A stretch of 40,728 nucleotides of DNA, taken from positions 1 through 40,728 of the forward strand of contig NZ_NFLM01000022.1 in assembly GCF_002160915.1 (NCBI RefSeq). Direction: 5' to 3'. The notes under the pieces are model-generated. The model was not told the origin of the DNA and searched no databases. It saw only the letters and a list, made by a program, of their open reading frames with translations. This DNA is from Faecalibacterium sp. An121. GTDB taxonomy: Bacteria; Bacillota; Clostridia; Oscillospirales; Ruminococcaceae. How positions within the stretch are numbered: position 1 is the first letter of the stretch; each line of letters begins with the position of its first letter. Below, piece by piece: positions 10,821 to 19,883 of this stretch. Position numbers and translations under genes: made by a program.

Positions 10821-11990
10821 ATGGAAAATCGTGCGGAGAAATTGAGGATCGCCATGTTCGGCCAGAAAAGATGGAGCCGTGAAGGCGGCATTGAGGTCGT
10901 GGTCAAGGAACTCAGCAGCCGAATGGTGAAGCTGGGCCATCAGGTGACCTGCTACAACCGGAGCGGCCATCATGTGAGCGGGAAAAAATTTGACAGTGCA
11001 AAACTGCGGGAATGCAAGGGCGTGAAAATCAAAACCGTCCCGACCATAAACAGGAAAGGATTTGCAGCGGTATCGTCCAGCTTCTTTGCGGCGCTTGCCT
11101 GTGCATGGGGAAAATACGATGTGGTGCACGTCCATGCAGAAGGTCCTGCGGCCATGTGCTGGCTGCCAAAGCTGTTTGGTAAACGTGTGGTGGTCACGAT
11201 CCATGGCTTGGACCACAGACGGGGCGAAAAGTGGGGCAGGTTTGCCCGGAAATATATCATGTTTGGCGAAAGAAATGCCGTTCGTTATGCAGATGAGATC
11301 ATTGTTTTAAGCCGAGGCGTGCAGCAATACTTTGCCGATGCTTATGGACGAAAAACCGTCTTTATCCCCAACGGAGTCGAGCGTCCCATACAGCAGGCGG
11401 CAAAGCTGATTCAAGAGAAGTTTGGCCTCGATAAAGATGGTTATATTTTGTTTCTGGGAAGGATCGTTCCGGAAAAAGGGATCCAGTATTTGATCAAGGC
11501 ATTCAAGCAGGTCGATACCGATAAAAAACTGGTCATAGCAGGCGGCAGCTCGGATTCGGACGCATTCATGCAAGAGATCACAAGGCTTGCCGCGGATGAC
11601 CATAGAATACGGTTTACTGGGTTTGTACAAGGGCAGATCTTGGCGGAATTGTATAGCAACGCCTATGTATACTGCCTGCCCAGTGATCTGGAAGGGATGC
11701 CGCTCAGCCTGCTGGAAGCGATGAGCTACGGAAACTGCTGCTTGACCTCGGATATTGCTGAATGTGCAGATGTTGTGGAAGATAAAGCGGTACTTTTTGA
11801 AAAAGGAAACATAGTAGCTTTGCAGAAGAAACTGGAAGAATTGTGCCAGCATCCTGAACAGGTAGAACAATACAAAAAGGAAGCGGCAGATTTTATCTGT
11901 GAAAAGTACAACTGGGATACGGTTGTCCAACAAACACTGGGCGTATATAGAGGAGGGACGGTCCATAAAGGAGCGAAATATCCTGATTGA
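10821..11990 (+). CDS. GT4 family glycosyltransferase
   Basis: A 389-residue GT-B fold glycosyltransferase of family GT4 (group 1). The N-terminal acceptor domain starts with RIAMFGQKRW and a glycine-rich turn EGGIE; VVTIHGLDHRRGEKWG lies near residue 125. The donor domain starts at about 205 (ILFLGRIVPEKGIQYLIKA) and carries the EX7E-type motif LEGMPLSLLEAM. Such enzymes move a sugar from a nucleotide donor to a lipid-linked or polysaccharide acceptor at the inner membrane face. The start ATG has AGGTGAAAG before it. It belongs to a rightward glycan module with an acyltransferase, a second GT4 enzyme and a radical SAM protein. Donor and acceptor cannot be read. Confidence 0.9.
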   Translation: MENRAEKLRIAMFGQKRWSREGGIEVVVKELSSRMVKLGHQVTCYNRSGHHVSGKKFDSAKLRECKGVKIKTVPTINRKGFAAVSSSFFAALACAWGKYDVVHVHAEGPAAMCWLPKLFGKRVVVTIHGLDHRRGEKWGRFARKYIMFGERNAVRYADEIIVLSRGVQQYFADAYGRKTVFIPNGVERPIQQAAKLIQEKFGLDKDGYILFLGRIVPEKGIQYLIKAFKQVDTDKKLVIAGGSSDSDAFMQEITRLAADDHRIRFTGFVQGQILAELYSNAYVYCLPSDLEGMPLSLLEAMSYGNCCLTSDIAECADVVEDKAVLFEKGNIVALQKKLEELCQHPEQVEQYKKEAADFICEKYNWDTVVQQTLGVYRGGTVHKGAKYPD

Positions 11991-12104
11991 TAAATGTTTT
12001 GAAAAGCAATCAATGTGGCAGAGAACTGAATTTAAACATTACCTTGGGAGAACTCAAAAATAAATAGTTAATAACTAAAACATTACATATAAGGACGAGA
12101 AGCA

Positions 12105-13121
12105 ATGAACAAGCAAAGGGAAATATGGGTAGATAATGTTAAAGTTGTAGCCTGTGTCTTGGTAGTACTTGGCCATTTCTTTCAGAGTATAACACAGGCG
12201 GATGTATTACCCACGAATGATTTATATCGGTGGTTTAATCAGACTATTTATTACTTCCATGTGCCGCTGTTCTTTATCTGTTCTGGTTACCTTTATCAGA
12301 AACTGAGTGTGGTTGATGATGTCCACAGTTGGGGAAGAAATGTTCTGAAAAAGCTGGTGGTGCTGGGGATTCCTTACTTCACATTTTCATTTGCTACATG
12401 GCTATTGAAAACATTGTTTTCTTCTACAGTAAATAGTCAAATCGGAAGTCTGTGCGATACGCTATTTATCCATCCGGTGTCACCATATTGGTATTTGTAT
12501 GCTTTATTTTTTGTGTTTTTGATTACACCTACATTTCGAACTAAAACCATGGCAAGAATTGGCTTAATTATTGGGCTGGCTTTTAAAGCCTTGGGAATTC
12601 TTGAAGGGCATAAGATACAATCTGTTTCATATATCCTTTCAAATGAAATATGGTTTGTTATCGGTATGTGCCTGAGTGTTTTTGAATTTAGAAGCTGTCT
12701 GGATAAGATTGGCCTGCTCGTGCCGACAATCGGCGGAGTCTTATTCCTGGTTTTAAGTATTGATGTTTATATGGAGGGAACTGATCGGGGAAGCGTTAGT
12801 TTCTTGCTTGGGCTGCTTGCCTGCAGTTCAATCATTGTTGCTATCACGAAAATATACGAAAAGAAAAGCCAGTCTATATTGTTTGGTATTTTGGCAAAAT
12901 ATACGATGCCTATTTTTCTGATGCATACACTGTTTGCTGCGCCATTAAGAATCATACTATTTAAGTTGGAAATTCGGAACGCAGCCCCTCATGTGATTTT
13001 TGGAATTGCAATTAGTTTTATTGGGCCAATGATAGCGGCGGTTATCATGAATAAGAGTAAATGGCTGGAGTTTTTTCTTTATCCGGGAAAGTATATCAAG
13101 AGTAATATAAGAAGTCAATGA
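12105..13121 (+). CDS. Membrane acyltransferase (acyltransferase 3 family)
   Basis: A 338-residue integral membrane protein with about ten hydrophobic segments. The start REIWVDNVKVVACVLVVLGH, with a His after the first helix, and the HVPLFFICSGYLY motif are the marks of acyltransferase family 3, which O-acetylates exported glycans. The gene is visibly AT-richer than the window's core genes, with AAA/ATT-type codons, suggesting recent transfer. Its ATG has AAGGACGAG upstream. A 115-base AT-rich gap separates it from the first GT4 gene. Its TGA overlaps the ATG of the next gene (ATGA at 13118-13121), so the two are coupled. Confidence 0.88.
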   Translation: MNKQREIWVDNVKVVACVLVVLGHFFQSITQADVLPTNDLYRWFNQTIYYFHVPLFFICSGYLYQKLSVVDDVHSWGRNVLKKLVVLGIPYFTFSFATWLLKTLFSSTVNSQIGSLCDTLFIHPVSPYWYLYALFFVFLITPTFRTKTMARIGLIIGLAFKALGILEGHKIQSVSYILSNEIWFVIGMCLSVFEFRSCLDKIGLLVPTIGGVLFLVLSIDVYMEGTDRGSVSFLLGLLACSSIIVAITKIYEKKSQSILFGILAKYTMPIFLMHTLFAAPLRIILFKLEIRNAAPHVIFGIAISFIGPMIAAVIMNKSKWLEFFLYPGKYIKSNIRSQ

Positions 13122-14332
13122 GATATATGAGAATACTGATGGTTAATAAATTCCTTTACCCCAACGGCGGCAGCGAAACATACATATTTAAACTGGGTGA
13201 TTATCTGAAAAGCCAGGGGCATGAAGTGCAATACTTCGGCATGGAACATAAAGGCCGCTGTGTGGGCAATCGTGTGAATGCGTACACCAGTGATATGGAC
13301 TTTCATGGAGGCTCAAAGCTGGCAAAACTTACATATCCTTTAAAGACTATCTATTCCTCAGAGGCGCGGAAGAAGCTTCGTCTTGTTCTGAATGACTTCA
13401 AGCCGGATGTGTGTCACCTCAACAATTTCAATTACCAGCTGACGCCCAGTATCATTCTGGAAATCCAGAAATGGCGCAAAGAAGGCAATAAATGCCGGAT
13501 TGTTTTTACTGCTCACGATTATCAGTTGGTGTGTCCTAATCATATGTGTAACAACCCGAACACCGGTGAGAATTGTGAAAAGTGTCTGGGCGGACATTTC
13601 CTGAATTGTGTAAAAGGCAAGTGTATCCACGGCAGCACAGCCAGATCTGTGATCGGGATGCTGGAGGCTGAGTTCTGGAAACGGAACGGTGCATACAATT
13701 ATATTGACACGATGATCTGCTGCTCCAAGTTCCTGAAAACAAAAATGGACAGCAATCTGCTTTTTGCACAAAAGACAATTGCGCTGCACAACTTTGTAGA
13801 CAAGGTGGAGTGGAAGGATACTTGCAAGAAAGAGTATGTGTTGTACTTTGGCCGCTATTCCAAAGAAAAGGGGATTGAGACTCTGATTCAAGTATGTAAG
13901 CAGCTTCCCGATATACCGTTTGTTTTTGCTGGAACAGGTCCGCTTGAAAGCGAACTGAGTGGTATTCCCAATGTCGGAAATGTGGGTTTTCAACGCGGCA
14001 AAGCACTGGAAAAGCTGATCCGGGAAGCCCGCTTCAGTATTTACCCATCCGAATGGTATGAAAACTGCCCGTTCTCTGTGATGGAATCTCAGATGTATGG
14101 CACGCCGGTGTTGGGCGCTGACATAGGCGGGATCCCGGAACTGATCGAGGCAGGTAAAACCGGTACTTTATTTGAAAGCGGCAATGCAAATGACCTAAAA
14201 GAGAAAATCCAGACGTTGTGGTCCGACCATGCGTTGACCGACCAGTACATGGAAAATTGCAAATCGATTCATTTTGACACGATAGAGGACTATTATAAAA
14301 AGCTGATTCCCATTTACTGTCCGAAAAAGTAA
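13118..14332 (+). CDS. GT4 family glycosyltransferase
   Basis: A 404-residue GT4 enzyme. The acceptor domain begins RILMVNKFLYPNGGSETYIF with the glycine-rich loop; a Cys-rich insertion CPNHMCNNPNTGENCEKC near residues 139-156 is typical of a GT4 subgroup in polysaccharide clusters. The donor domain starts near 245 (YVLYFGRYSKEKGIETLI) and has EWYENCPFSVMESQMYG as the EX7E region. It starts in a 4-base overlap with the acyltransferase gene. An alternative in-frame ATG three codons later (13127) would also fit. It probably adds a second sugar in the same glycan; the substrate is unknown. Confidence 0.9.
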   Translation: MRYMRILMVNKFLYPNGGSETYIFKLGDYLKSQGHEVQYFGMEHKGRCVGNRVNAYTSDMDFHGGSKLAKLTYPLKTIYSSEARKKLRLVLNDFKPDVCHLNNFNYQLTPSIILEIQKWRKEGNKCRIVFTAHDYQLVCPNHMCNNPNTGENCEKCLGGHFLNCVKGKCIHGSTARSVIGMLEAEFWKRNGAYNYIDTMICCSKFLKTKMDSNLLFAQKTIALHNFVDKVEWKDTCKKEYVLYFGRYSKEKGIETLIQVCKQLPDIPFVFAGTGPLESELSGIPNVGNVGFQRGKALEKLIREARFSIYPSEWYENCPFSVMESQMYGTPVLGADIGGIPELIEAGKTGTLFESGNANDLKEKIQTLWSDHALTDQYMENCKSIHFDTIEDYYKKLIPIYCPKK

Positions 14333-14357
14333 TGAGAAAAAGGAGGGGGGACAACCA

Positions 14358-15551
14358 ATGGTCAAGGATAAAACAACGATAGGCAAAAAATTGAACGGGA
14401 CCGTCATTGTGACCTACCGCTGCAATGCGCGTTGCTCGATGTGCAACCGCTATAAGGCTCCTTCCAGAGCGGAAGAGGAAATCAGCATCGAAACCATCAA
14501 AAAGCTGCCCCGGATGTACTTTACCAACATCACCGGCGGCGAGCCGTTCATACGTACCGATCTGAAAGATATTGTGCGTGAGCTGTACAAAAAGAGCGAC
14601 CGTATCGTTATTTCCACCAACGGTTTCTTCACCGATCGTATTGTGGATCTGTGCAAAGAATATCCTGAGATCGGCATCCGCATTTCCATTGAGGGTCTGG
14701 AACAGACCAACAACGAGATTCGCGGCCTGCAGAACGGTTACCAGCGCGGCTATCAAACATTAAAAATGCTCCGTGAAATGGGAATGAAGGACGTCGGTTT
14801 CGGCATGACGGTGCAGGATAAGAACGCCCCTGATCTGGTGCCATTATACAGGATCTCAAATGAGATGGGCATGGAGTTTGCAACGGCTTCCCTGCATAAC
14901 AGCTTCTATTTTGTAGAGGCCAAAAATATCATCCATGACCGGCCAATGGTTGCCAAGAACTTTGAGAACCTTATCAATGAGCTGCTGCGCAGCAACAGCC
15001 CCAAAAAGTGGTTCCGAGCCTACTTCAATCATGGCCTGATCAATTACATTTACAGCCAGAAACGACTGCTGCCCTGTGATATGAGTTTCGATACTTTCTT
15101 TATTGACCCTTATGGAGATGTGATGCCCTGCAACGGCACCAAAGATAAGGAAGTTATGGGCAATCTGAACACCCAAACCTGGGATGAATTGTGGAATAGC
15201 CCGGAGGCTGAAAAAGTGCGGAAAAAGGTGCGTTGCTGTGACCGTGACTGCTGGATGATCGGATCGGTTTCGCCGGCCATGCACAAGTACATTTGGATCC
15301 CAATCTGGTGGGTGCTGCGCCATAAATTCAAGGCGCTGTTTACAAAACATCCTTACAGTATGTATGAACTGAAGATCTGCCGGGATTACCGAGACGGCAA
15401 GGTGACCAAAGAACAACTGGATCAGTGCAGTACTTGCGACTTGAATGCCGAGGTCAATGATGGGCTGAGCGAAGCCAGCAAAGCGCAGTTGAAAGGTAAG
15501 ACTGGCGAGGAAATTGTGGATGCGGATATTGCGGCGCAGATAAAAGAATAA
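14358..15551 (+). CDS. Radical SAM protein of the glycan module (SPASM-like)
   Basis: A 397-residue radical SAM protein. The cluster motif CNARCSMC gives Cys22, Cys26 and Cys29 (CX3CX2C), followed by the SAM-binding TGGEPF. The C-terminal part has further cysteines in CDMSFDTFFIDP, MPCNGTK and CCDRDCW, and a late CSTC pair, resembling a SPASM or twitch auxiliary-cluster domain. A hydrophobic stretch (IWIPIWWVL) sits near residue 315. The ATG has AGGAGGGGGG upstream and lies 25 bases after the second GT4 gene. Related proteins next to glycosyltransferases are thought to modify sugars or lipids. A peptide-modifying role is the alternative, but no precursor peptide is adjacent. Confidence 0.85.
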   Translation: MVKDKTTIGKKLNGTVIVTYRCNARCSMCNRYKAPSRAEEEISIETIKKLPRMYFTNITGGEPFIRTDLKDIVRELYKKSDRIVISTNGFFTDRIVDLCKEYPEIGIRISIEGLEQTNNEIRGLQNGYQRGYQTLKMLREMGMKDVGFGMTVQDKNAPDLVPLYRISNEMGMEFATASLHNSFYFVEAKNIIHDRPMVAKNFENLINELLRSNSPKKWFRAYFNHGLINYIYSQKRLLPCDMSFDTFFIDPYGDVMPCNGTKDKEVMGNLNTQTWDELWNSPEAEKVRKKVRCCDRDCWMIGSVSPAMHKYIWIPIWWVLRHKFKALFTKHPYSMYELKICRDYRDGKVTKEQLDQCSTCDLNAEVNDGLSEASKAQLKGKTGEEIVDADIAAQIKE

Positions 15552-16005: not shown

Positions 16006-16371
16006 CGGTTTCTTTGGATTCTTTCGGCTATCAGGTGTGGGAGTTGACTTTGTACATAAAGAGAAACTGGACCTTGTGTTCATCTCTTGGATGATGGGCT
16101 TGCTCCCGTTGCAGCAGAGGGAGATGGATGCCTTTCTACAGGGGTGCAGCTGCCTCCCGCCGTCCTTTCTGCTTGTGTTGACCTGTCGGAAACCGTATAA
16201 AAATACAGGTCCCAAGCCTCCAAGAGCTTCCGAAGGGGGTCCTTTTGGTATTTCTTTCACGCATTTTAACGCATTGAAACGGATTTTCACGGAAAAGCTG
16301 TCTTTGAATATTTTTCGACTTATGATAATAGAGGGGTCCATGCTTTGGATGTTCCAAGGGAGGAATATAGT
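16006..16371 (+). other. Region before the Spo0A-like gene, possible receiver-domain relic
   Basis: No intact gene is seen. The plus-strand frame at 16037 reads GVDFVHKEKLDLVFISWMMG and then, near residue 45, FLLVLT. This resembles the third and fourth strands of a response-regulator receiver domain (DLVLLDxMMP, then VIVLT), with the phospho-acceptor Asp replaced by Ser. Sequence after that does not fit the domain. It begins right at the repeat copy ending at 16005. AGGATGATAAT-like DNA near 16322-16330 may hold the promoter of the next gene. Confidence 0.3.
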
Positions 16372-16725
16372 ATGGACAAGAAAAATGTTTTGCTGGACAT
16401 TTTGCGGCCGTTCGGCATCGTCAGCCAGTACGCTGGCTGTGCGCAGCTGATCCGTGCAGTCGAACTTACGCTGGAAAATCCGGATGCCATTCAGGCTGTG
16501 CACAAACAGATCTATGCGGTCATTGCAAAAGAATACGGCATTCAGCCGAAATCGGTCGAGAGCAACATCCGAACGGTATCGGCTGTTGCGTGGGCGACCG
16601 ATCCCGTCAGGCTGAAAAAAGTGGCTGGCTTTTCGCTGCATGGCCAACCGTCTGCCGTGGAGTTTATTGAAATTTTCTCGAATTATATGCAGAGAAAGGA
16701 CATGAAAGAAACCGTCCATAGTTGA
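16372..16725 (+). CDS. Stand-alone Spo0A C-terminal DNA-binding domain protein
   Basis: A 117-residue protein that is almost entirely a Spo0A_C domain, the DNA-binding half of the sporulation master regulator: LRPFGIVSQYAGCAQLIRAV, then the region with IYAVIAKEYGIQPKSVESNI, then SAVAW and FSLHGQPSAVEFI. Full Spo0A is about 265 residues with an N-terminal receiver; none is joined here. GGGAGGA precedes ATG 16372, which is preferred over an upstream in-frame ATG at 16345 without such a site. A terminator follows at 16767. It may bind 0A-type sites without phosphorylation control, or it may be the surviving half of a broken regulator. No other sporulation gene is in the window. Confidence 0.82.
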   Translation: MDKKNVLLDILRPFGIVSQYAGCAQLIRAVELTLENPDAIQAVHKQIYAVIAKEYGIQPKSVESNIRTVSAVAWATDPVRLKKVAGFSLHGQPSAVEFIEIFSNYMQRKDMKETVHS

Positions 16726-17415: not shown

Positions 17416-18119
17416 TCAAGCCGGCAAGGCGTCGTGTTTTTGGAGGAACTTTTTGGTGCACAGATAAGTGATCCCGATTCCCAGAAACACCACGAACAGG
17501 CATACGATCACCCCGATGGTTCGGTGGGCGGTCAACAGGATGTACAGCGGTGTGGCTAACAAGCTACCAAAATTGGTGGTGCCATGAATCACCATGGTGA
17601 CTGCAAGATTATCGGTCCGCCAATAGATCCAGGCCAGCCATATTCCAATAACAAACACTGCTGGCCAGGAAACCTTAGTATGTCCAAACAAAAAGAAAGC
17701 AGCTGAGAATACAATTGCTTTTGGATAGGAAATAAACCTAGAAAAGGAGCCGAACAGCATCCCTCGAACTAAGAGTTCCTCTACAACTGGCAGCAGCAAC
17801 ACAGATGTTGCCATCCAAAGGAAGCCATCGGGAACCGACAGTTCAGGGATTGGCTCTCCGCTCAAAACAGTAATCAGAATCGATATTTTAAAAAAAGCGA
17901 CATACCAAAGCCGATTCCAAGACAAAAAAGGAGTTGAGATCCCTTCAAATCCCGGCTGCTCATATGCAACATTTGCTTCCTGTAAAGCATGAAAGCAAAC
18001 ACAATCACTGCAATGGTCCCGGCAATAACAGTATAATAAGTTTCTGAGATATAAAAATACACCATCAATTGCAATAGAAAATAACTGATAAAAGCCAAGA
18101 TTCCCTGGTACGGTTTCAT
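17416..18119 (-). CDS. CPBP family intramembrane metalloprotease, frameshifted copy
   Basis: A CPBP (CAAX protease and bacteriocin-processing, Abi) membrane protein whose frame is split. ATG 18119 (GGGAGGATG upstream) reads MKPYQGILAFISYFL... to SLFLKYRF and stops at 17874. The -1 frame continues with KISILITVLSGEPIPE and runs to 17416. Joined, it gives 234 residues, aligning end to end with the 237-residue intact copy at 18747-19460. The switch point is CTTTTTTTAAAA: in the zero frame it reads T TTT TTA, a canonical slippery heptamer, and a -1 slip restores the frame exactly. Conserved motifs lie after it: EELLVR (EEXXXR), FFLFGH (FXXXH) and HGTTN (HXXXN). It may be a pseudogene, a product of slippage, or a sequencing error in the T7 run. 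It lies downstream of the lanthipeptide precursor with its own promoter. Confidence 0.85.
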
Positions 18120-18258: not shown

Positions 18259-18298
18259 CAAGAAAAGGCAACCGTTCTTCTGTTAGGACAGTTGCCTT
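18259..18298 (-). terminator. Terminator of the lanthipeptide precursor gene
   Basis: AAGGCAAC (minus strand) pairs with GTTGCCTT across an 18-base loop and is followed by TTCTT. It lies about 60 bases past the precursor stop. Confidence 0.65.
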
Positions 18299-18356
18299 CA
18301 GGCTAAAGATTATTTAGAGTAAATTACAAGCTTATATCGCTAGGGGTTCATTTAAG

Positions 18357-18602
18357 TTAACAGGAGCCACCACAGTAAGAGCGGCACTGCGAAATAGATT
18401 TTTCGTCTCCAGAGCCATCTCCGCAAATATCGGAAGTTTCGCATTCCCAGCAAATCGTAGCAATCTCCGTACAATGCATTTCCGATATTTGCGTAGGCGT
18501 ACAATCCCATTGAGTGTAAATAGAGCCAGTAGATCGAGGGCTGATTCCGTTCTTGGATTGAGAAATCTGCATATCCAGATCAAAATCATTGTAGTTGGTC
18601 AT
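18357..18602 (-). CDS. Class I lanthipeptide precursor peptide (LanA-like)
   Basis: An 81-residue peptide with the architecture of a nisin/subtilin-type precursor. The leader has NDFDLDMQIS at 5-14, the FNLD/FDLD box recognised by class I LanB and LanC enzymes (subtilin has DDFDLDV). It ends in ISPR at 20-23, like the ASPR processing site of nisin. The proposed 58-residue core starts at Ser24 and holds eight Cys (34, 44, 51, 54, 60, 73, 77, 81) and 16 Ser/Thr, as needed for (methyl)lanthionine rings. The core is unusually long, acidic in places (WECETSD, GDGSGDEKS) and lacks the nisin CTPGC lipid-II ring, having CTPT instead. AAGAAAGGAG precedes the ATG; it has its own promoter and terminator. 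No lanB, lanC, lanT or lanP is in the window. CPBP protease genes flank it on both sides, same strand. Modification and activity are inferred. Confidence 0.78.
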   Translation of the reverse strand: MTNYNDFDLDMQISQSKNGISPRSTGSIYTQWDCTPTQISEMHCTEIATICWECETSDICGDGSGDEKSISQCRSYCGGSC

Positions 18603-18671
18603 TTGGGACTCCTTTCTTACTTTAACATCACTTTAGCCTGGAAAGTGAAAGCAATAATGTTTTCAACTTTC

Positions 18672-18700
18672 AATATGCTATCCGTGTTACAACTAAGCAA
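18672..18700 (-). promoter_or_regulatory. Candidate promoter of the lanthipeptide precursor gene
   Basis: Minus strand TTGCTT-17 bp-CATATT, about 70 bases before the ATG. The 145-base gap to the upstream CPBP gene is AT-rich, leaving room for an independent promoter; other AT-rich hexamers nearby make the exact site uncertain. Confidence 0.45.
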
Positions 18701-18746
18701 GGTTACAATAATTCATCTTTTCTGAACGCAAATACTTTTCTATATG

Positions 18747-19460
18747 TCAAGCTGACAAGGCGTCATGTTTTTGGAGGAACTTTTTGGTGCACAGATAAGT
18801 GATCCCGATTCCCAGGAACACCACGAACAGGCATACGATCACCCCGATGGTTCGGTGGGTGGTCAACAGGGCGTAGAGCGGCATCGACAAGAAAGTGCCC
18901 AAATTGATTGTGCCATGAATCACCATGGTGACTGCAAGATTGTCGGTCCGCCAATAGATCCAGGCCAGCAAGATCCCGATGAGGAACACAGACGGCCAGG
19001 AAATCGTCAAATGTGACAGCGCAAAGATAGCTGCCGAGAGTACCATAGCAATTTTGTAAGAGAAGGAGCTGACAAAGGACCCAAACAGGATTCCCCGGAA
19101 CAAAAGTTCTTCCATGATAGGGATTAGAACTATCCTGGTTGCCATGTATTGTGTCCAAAAGAAAAGAGTAGGAAATATTTGTTCGGGGAGCGGCTCCTGG
19201 CTCAAAACGCCAAGAACAATCGCTATTTTGGAAATCAGGGCCAGGCCGAGGCCGATCCCGACACAAAAGAGGAGCTGAGAGCCCTTCAGGTCCCGGCTGC
19301 TGAGATGCAGCATCCGTTTTTTGTGCAGCAGCCATCCAAGTACAATCAATGCGATAATCCCGGCAATGGGCTCATAATACTCTACCGAGATAAAGCGGGC
19401 CACCAGGATCTGCAATACCAAATAACCAATCAAAGCCAAGATTCCCTGGTACGGTTTCAT
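18747..19460 (-). CDS. CPBP family intramembrane metalloprotease, intact copy
   Basis: A 237-residue multi-pass membrane protein. It carries all CPBP motifs: EELLFRG (EEXXXR), FALSH (FXXXH) and HGTIN (HXXXN), which form the glutamate/histidine active site of Rce1-type proteases. In Gram-positive bacteria CPBP proteins often sit next to bacteriocin genes and give self-immunity or process peptides. It lies directly upstream of the lanthipeptide precursor on the same strand and is nearly identical in its last 75 residues to the frameshifted copy at 17416-18119. ATG 19460 (GGGAGGAAG before it) matches the start of that copy; a longer frame to 19652 lacks a ribosome binding site. Promoter at 19503-19531. 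A role in immunity to, or maturation of, the peptide is inference from context. Confidence 0.88.
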   Translation of the reverse strand: MKPYQGILALIGYLVLQILVARFISVEYYEPIAGIIALIVLGWLLHKKRMLHLSSRDLKGSQLLFCVGIGLGLALISKIAIVLGVLSQEPLPEQIFPTLFFWTQYMATRIVLIPIMEELLFRGILFGSFVSSFSYKIAMVLSAAIFALSHLTISWPSVFLIGILLAWIYWRTDNLAVTMVIHGTINLGTFLSMPLYALLTTHRTIGVIVCLFVVFLGIGITYLCTKKFLQKHDALSA

Positions 19461-19792: not shown

Positions 19793-19883
19793 TGGCGGAG
19801 CAGCAGGGATTTGAACCCTGGCGCCGGTCGCCCGGCCTACGAGATTTCGAGTCACGCCTCTTCGACCACTTGAGTACTGCTCC
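19793..19883 (-). tRNA. tRNA-Ser(CGA)
   Basis: A 91-base tRNA with acceptor GGAGCAG/CTGCTCC, discriminator G and encoded CCA. The anticodon loop is CTCGAAA, giving anticodon CGA for UCG codons; the anticodon stem has one U-U mismatch. The T arm CAGGGTTCAAATCCCTG is canonical, and the long variable arm (GTAGGCCGGGCGACCGGCGC region) marks it as a class II, serine-type tRNA. It has its own promoter inside the argF terminator and its own terminator. Confidence 0.93.

Follow-up and report, generated by a model that had tools for sequence, protein, structure and literature searches.

Is the small cysteine-rich peptide encoded at 18357..18602 (minus strand) of our window a class I lanthipeptide precursor, and could the bacterium that carries it mature it? 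(By the window we mean the whole stretch of DNA that was analysed, 40,728 nucleotides from Faecalibacterium sp. An121.) A preliminary description had proposed an orphan precursor whose core would form rings in a new layout.

Sequence features of the peptide

Translation of the minus strand from 18602 to 18357 gives an 81-residue LanA-like product, MTNYNDFDLD...CGGSC, and confirms the basic features that had been described, with the strand now given as minus. There is an FDLD box at residues 7-10 (18573..18584, minus strand), and the core of 58 residues contains 8 Cys and 16 Ser/Thr. By composition count, the core also has 9 Asp/Glu and 2 Lys/Arg; it is acidic, and its cysteines include one CxxC. 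The putative leader/core junction is SPR at residues 21-23 (18534..18542, minus strand), a junction type that we compared with the entries in Table 2 of PMC3930743.

F(D/N)LD-type leader motifs are described in PMC3930743 and PMC7268733. In Table 2 of PMC3930743, the distance from the box to the arginine is 18 residues for nisin A and entianin, 17 for geobacillin I, and 16 for streptin. Here, FDLD and the Arg of SPR are 17 residues apart, which is inside the 16-20 range of that table. The peptide was said to have ISPR exactly where nisin has ASPR; the SPR junction holds up, but the position is not exact (17 residues, versus the 18 tabulated for nisin A). Two leader features expected of a LanA are present: an F(D/N)LD-type box, and a proline at position -2 of a putative cleavage site whose distance from the first residue of the box falls within 16-20.

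Within the core, residues 30-36 match T-x3-C-T-P, an arrangement like that of nisin ring A with TP directly after it, and the first core Cys is inside the motif. The sequence at this motif is TQWDCTPTQ, and the next Gly-Cys of the lipid II motif is missing. The full lipid II motif of the nisin/gallidermin group, SxxxCTP(G/S)C (PMC7268733), is absent from the core. The earlier statement that the core lacks CTPGC was literally true, but it passed over the T-x3-C-T-P match. All 8 core cysteines have a Ser/Thr partner in reach, but the same is true of 461 of 5000 shuffled cores, so the argument from potential rings is weak.

The peptide thus shares two things with the precursors of nisin and subtilin (TIGR03731, PF02052): a leader of the F(D/N)LD...SPR type and T/S-x3-C-T-P. 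It differs from them in that neither model matches, the motif lacks its second Cys, and the core is longer. (The nisin core is shorter than the 58 residues seen here.)

The gene was also described as having its own ribosome site, promoter, and terminator. The ribosome-binding site region, AAGAAAGGAGTCCCAA, lies at 18603..18618 (minus strand) just before the ATG, and we graded this site as good. A terminator-like hairpin lies 3' of the ORF at 18264..18299 (minus strand; stem of 12 bp + 2); the 81 nt that contain it fold with -20.1 kcal/mol (z = -3.25). The run of T is short, some of it falls within the stem, and the hairpin is not among the terminators of the consensus scan. The promoter is the part that was not borne out, as the promoter scan found no minus-strand site in 18603-18760. 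Immediately upstream of the ribosome site is a perfect inverted repeat (7+7 nt, 18628..18648), which is possibly an operator.

Profile matches and chance tests

The peptide has a profile match to NCBIfam NF038155 (FDLD class I lanthipeptide). The match aligns residues 5-35 of the peptide to profile positions 1-30 of 34, which is the right place, but with just 15.6 bits (E = 0.021) against a cut-off of 20; in genome-wide searches the same peptide scores 17.3 bits, also below the cut-off. Scores of this size are not rare: among 297 genomes of the family, nine (including this one) have a match at E <= 0.1. None of the 297 reaches the cut-off; 1 of 391 genomes of the class is over it. Other lantibiotic models (TIGR03731, and Pfam including PF02052, Gallidermin) do not match the peptide at all, and PHROG gives no family match.

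Like the lanthipeptides of NF038155 (such as the precursor in genome G743), the peptide has an FDLD box towards the N terminus, a spacer with K, G, and P, and CTP in the core. In a pairwise alignment with the G743 precursor, which is encoded beside lanB, the common positions are NDFDLD, K17, G19, P22, and C-T-P. The peptide differs from this family in its score below the cut-off, its acidic 58-residue core with 8 Cys, the lack of CTPGC, and the lack of any lanB or lanC found in the genome.

With a profile made of 16 published leaders of class I, the peptide gets 8.3 bits (E = 0.67 among 2,898 ORFs), which is not significant. One protein among 14,490 shuffled ones scores 10.4 bits, equal to the LanA of G743, and the LanA of G116 is not listed at all. 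(This profile also gives a 44-residue match with E = 0.21 in locus L077, but this is our peptide again, truncated where the locus ends.)

Could the ORF be non-functional or a product of chance? We applied a filter for small ORFs with the box and the junction, which was designed after the peptide had been seen. In 6 Mb of random DNA with the composition of the island, 0 of 40,925 M-starts pass (24 have the box alone); in the window, 1 of 348 does. A looser filter, applied to 5,179 M-starts in 636,309 bp of partly overlapping loci, returns three distinct proteins: the peptide and two LanAs beside lanB, from loci that were chosen for their lan genes. The filter result argues against a chance ORF, as do the good ribosome site and the hairpin. 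On the other side are the ring partners in shuffled cores, the lack of a promoter in the minus-strand scan, and the lack of relatives in the collections searched (see below). We consider a chance or non-functional ORF improbable.

The NF038155 match supports the view that the leader resembles that of a class I LanA, at a sub-threshold level. An alternative is that FDLD and SPR occur by chance in something else, such as a small cytosolic protein rich in Cys (for instance, a metal-binding one) or an unmodified bacteriocin-like peptide that works together with the flanking CPBP proteins, and that the peptide is thus no lanthipeptide. The sub-threshold leader match, the weak leader profile, the 8 Cys with a CxxC, and the acidic core would all fit this. 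But the box, the junction, and T-x3-C-T-P stand in the order of a LanA, and the peptide matches no Pfam or PHROG family. We think that this alternative is distinctly unlikely, and the CPBP genes bear on it as well, as discussed below.

Search for maturation enzymes

The genome assembly is a draft (2.71 Mb in 62 contigs, 99.32% complete). Searching all of it for the N-terminal LanB domain (PF04738) gave no matches. (The PF04738 search was positive in two of four genomes, G116 and G743; in a separate first search, no control genome was positive.) The C-terminal LanB domain (PF14028) was found in none of 31 genomes of the genus, including this one, in a search in which no control was positive; the PF14028 model does recognise the LanB of G116 in hmmscan. 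Similarly, there are no candidates for LanC-like proteins (PF05147) in the assembly, and only 2 of 297 genomes of the family are positive. One of these two, G116, has a lanB-lanC locus with its own precursor, and the other, G341, has a weak match without LanB-N. In one family member with a 0.9-Mb genome, we noticed a precursor with an LSLD leader and a CTPGC core beside lanB and lanC (locus L056, 12839-13009, minus strand).

As for immunity, no gallidermin-type LanF is over the cut-off in this genome; among the 66 of 75 candidates that were scored, the best has 172.5 of the required 309.75 bits. In two of the 31 genomes of the genus, the scored candidates include an immunity ATPase of the gallidermin type that exceeds the curated cut-off. 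These are G003 (locus L105) and G022 (locus L106), where PF14028 was not found.

The orphan status of the gene, originally argued from the window, therefore extends to the entire assembly, which lacks LanB-N and LanC-like domains. The lack of a class I synthetase in the genome had been named as one of the observations that would refute the proposal, and as far as the assembly shows, there is none. We found no remnants of lanB or lanC either, so the loss of a lan cluster from this genome is not demonstrated.

A working orphan precursor might instead be matured in trans, with its FDLD leader recognised by LanB and LanC that are encoded on a plasmid, in an assembly gap, or elsewhere. The ORF is intact, it has a ribosome site and a hairpin, and the leader box has been kept; an assembly in 62 contigs that is 99.32% complete leaves some room for such genes. 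Nevertheless, the assembly has no match to LanB-N, LanB-C, or LanC-like domains, PF14028 was not found in any of the 31 genomes of the genus, and LanC-like genes are rare in the family. The sub-cut-off LanF score (172.5 of 309.75 bits, with 66 of 75 candidates scored) also counts against this explanation, and we judge it to be unlikely.

We also considered the radical SAM gene at 14358-15551 as a maturase, which is unlikely. It sits amid glycosyltransferase and acyltransferase genes. Orthologues that are 91-93% identical are present in 4 of 30 congeners, in which no peptide-like sequence was found (the best match, in G012, has E = 0.466). When the radical SAM protein is compared with profiles, the matches to AlbA, PapB, and pVip are of the kind that a radical SAM domain gives, and they are far below the cut-off where one is given. 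More broadly, the idea that an FDLD-leader peptide is used without LanB and LanC (either modified by an unrecognised enzyme of the organism, or unmodified and forming a new peptide/immunity pair with CPBP) seems very improbable to us.

Genomic setting

The gene lies in a low-GC stretch: mean GC is 45.6% over 10.3-19.8 kb, versus 61.5% before it and 65.0% after it. A tRNA-Ser (CGA) gene at 19793..19883 (minus strand) marks the right edge. The plus strand of this stretch carries genes for a glycosyltransferase, an acyltransferase, another glycosyltransferase, and a radical SAM/SPASM protein (10821-15551). It also carries an ORF of 126 amino acids at 16345-16725, whose sole Pfam match above the cut-off is the C-terminal domain of Spo0A and which has two PHROG relatives.

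We compared this region to other genomes of the genus using argF, which has a match in 29 of them (in some, only to a 45% paralogue). The 15 genomes with a close argF match were cut beside argF; 3 of these 15 stretches stop early at a contig end. The tRNA-Ser(CGA) gene is beside argF in 12 of the 15, at a variable distance. None of the 12 window proteins besides argF has a strong match in these stretches (E <= 1e-4), and the radical SAM protein gives two pieces at 27-28% in locus L099. Because the genes to the left of the low-GC stretch are also missing there, the left border of the island cannot be fixed by this comparison.

On either side of the peptide gene, on the same strand, are paralogous genes for CPBP (CAAX-type) intramembrane proteases, and such CPBP/Abi proteins have an immunity function in bacteriocin loci. 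The upstream neighbour (18747..19460, minus strand, 237 amino acids) has EExxxR, FxxxH, and HxxxN, which we take to be the CPBP motifs. The downstream neighbour (17416..18119, minus strand) is broken into two reading frames close to a run of T at about 17890. The longest repeat blocks of the two paralogues are 84% and 73% alike.

The adjacency of CPBP genes and a small peptide gene recalls those bacteriocin loci, and it is a further point in favour of the alternative that the peptide is not a lanthipeptide. One copy here, however, is broken. CPBP orthologues (66-73%) in three congeners (G001, G013, and G014) have no FDLD small ORF seen beside them, with the G013 gene at a contig end so that only one side is visible. 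This argues against CPBP as a fixed partner of such a peptide, and also against the reading in which the peptide is not a lanthipeptide. With a loose filter, one ORF each was found near the CPBP genes of G014 and G001 (82 and 124 amino acids); these lack a ribosome site and are not LanA-like. (Weak CPBP matches in G009 and G027 were examined within loci of 3.3-3.4 kb.) We can only guess that the CPBP genes on either side serve immunity, be it as remnants or as active genes.

Search for homologues

We found no homologue of the peptide in 198 other related genomes. The best match has E = 0.0158 over 36 residues and includes an internal stop, which is at chance level; matches at E <= 1 occur in 50 of the 198. 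The genome collection contains one genome per species. Octapeptide patterns hit 33 stretches in genome_contigs, of which none was confirmed, and no stretch in viral_contigs; an alignment query against viral_contigs hit 146 stretches, and again none was confirmed. Searching plasmids and phages with tblastn gave no match to the peptide. A DNA pattern for FDLD-P-CTP with fixed spacing, which is blind to relatives with other spacing, hit 10 stretches in genome_contigs and another 5 in viral_contigs; on translation, not one of these 15 encodes a small Cys-rich precursor. Relatives that adjoin lan genes, as expected for a LanA, were not found in the collections searched. The titles and abstract openings that we searched hold no report of this peptide.

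With no synthetase in the assembly and no homologue to show that the core is conserved, the earlier proposal of a processed lanthipeptide with a new ring layout is unsupported.

The most likely explanation

We read this most economically as a stranded LanA-like gene: a solitary lanA-type gene of class I, probably imported with the low-GC DNA beside tRNA-Ser, and now left without dedicated enzymes. We give this about an even chance, and it is more likely than a working new antibiotic. Several observations speak for it: the NF038155 alignment, the likeness to the G743 leader, the lack of LanB-N and LanC-like domains, the low-GC island next to tRNA-Ser, and the broken gene that adjoins. Against it, the intact ORF and the good ribosome site fit use better than decay. 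In addition, the NF038155 score is below the cut-off, there is no lan remnant, no homologue is available to show selection, and the 16-leader profile is not significant.

It is plausible that the precursor is able to work like a class I LanA. In its original setting, the FDLD leader would be bound by a LanB that dehydrates Ser and Thr residues, and LanC would close thioether rings, the first of which would be like ring A of nisin (T-x3-C). Export would fall to LanT, and cleavage after SPR to LanP. With the genes of this assembly, the known class I route could yield only the unmodified peptide, and the idea of a functional lanthipeptide does not pass the enzyme test there.

Should maturation in trans take place after all, class I would gain a core with eight Cys and part of the nisin ring-A motif. 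The peptide would also show that a precursor and its enzymes can be kept separately, in a family with few LanC-like genes (2 of 297 genomes). If it is stranded, the gene illustrates a precursor left alone beside a tRNA gene, and it would be a caution for genome mining that relies on precursors only.
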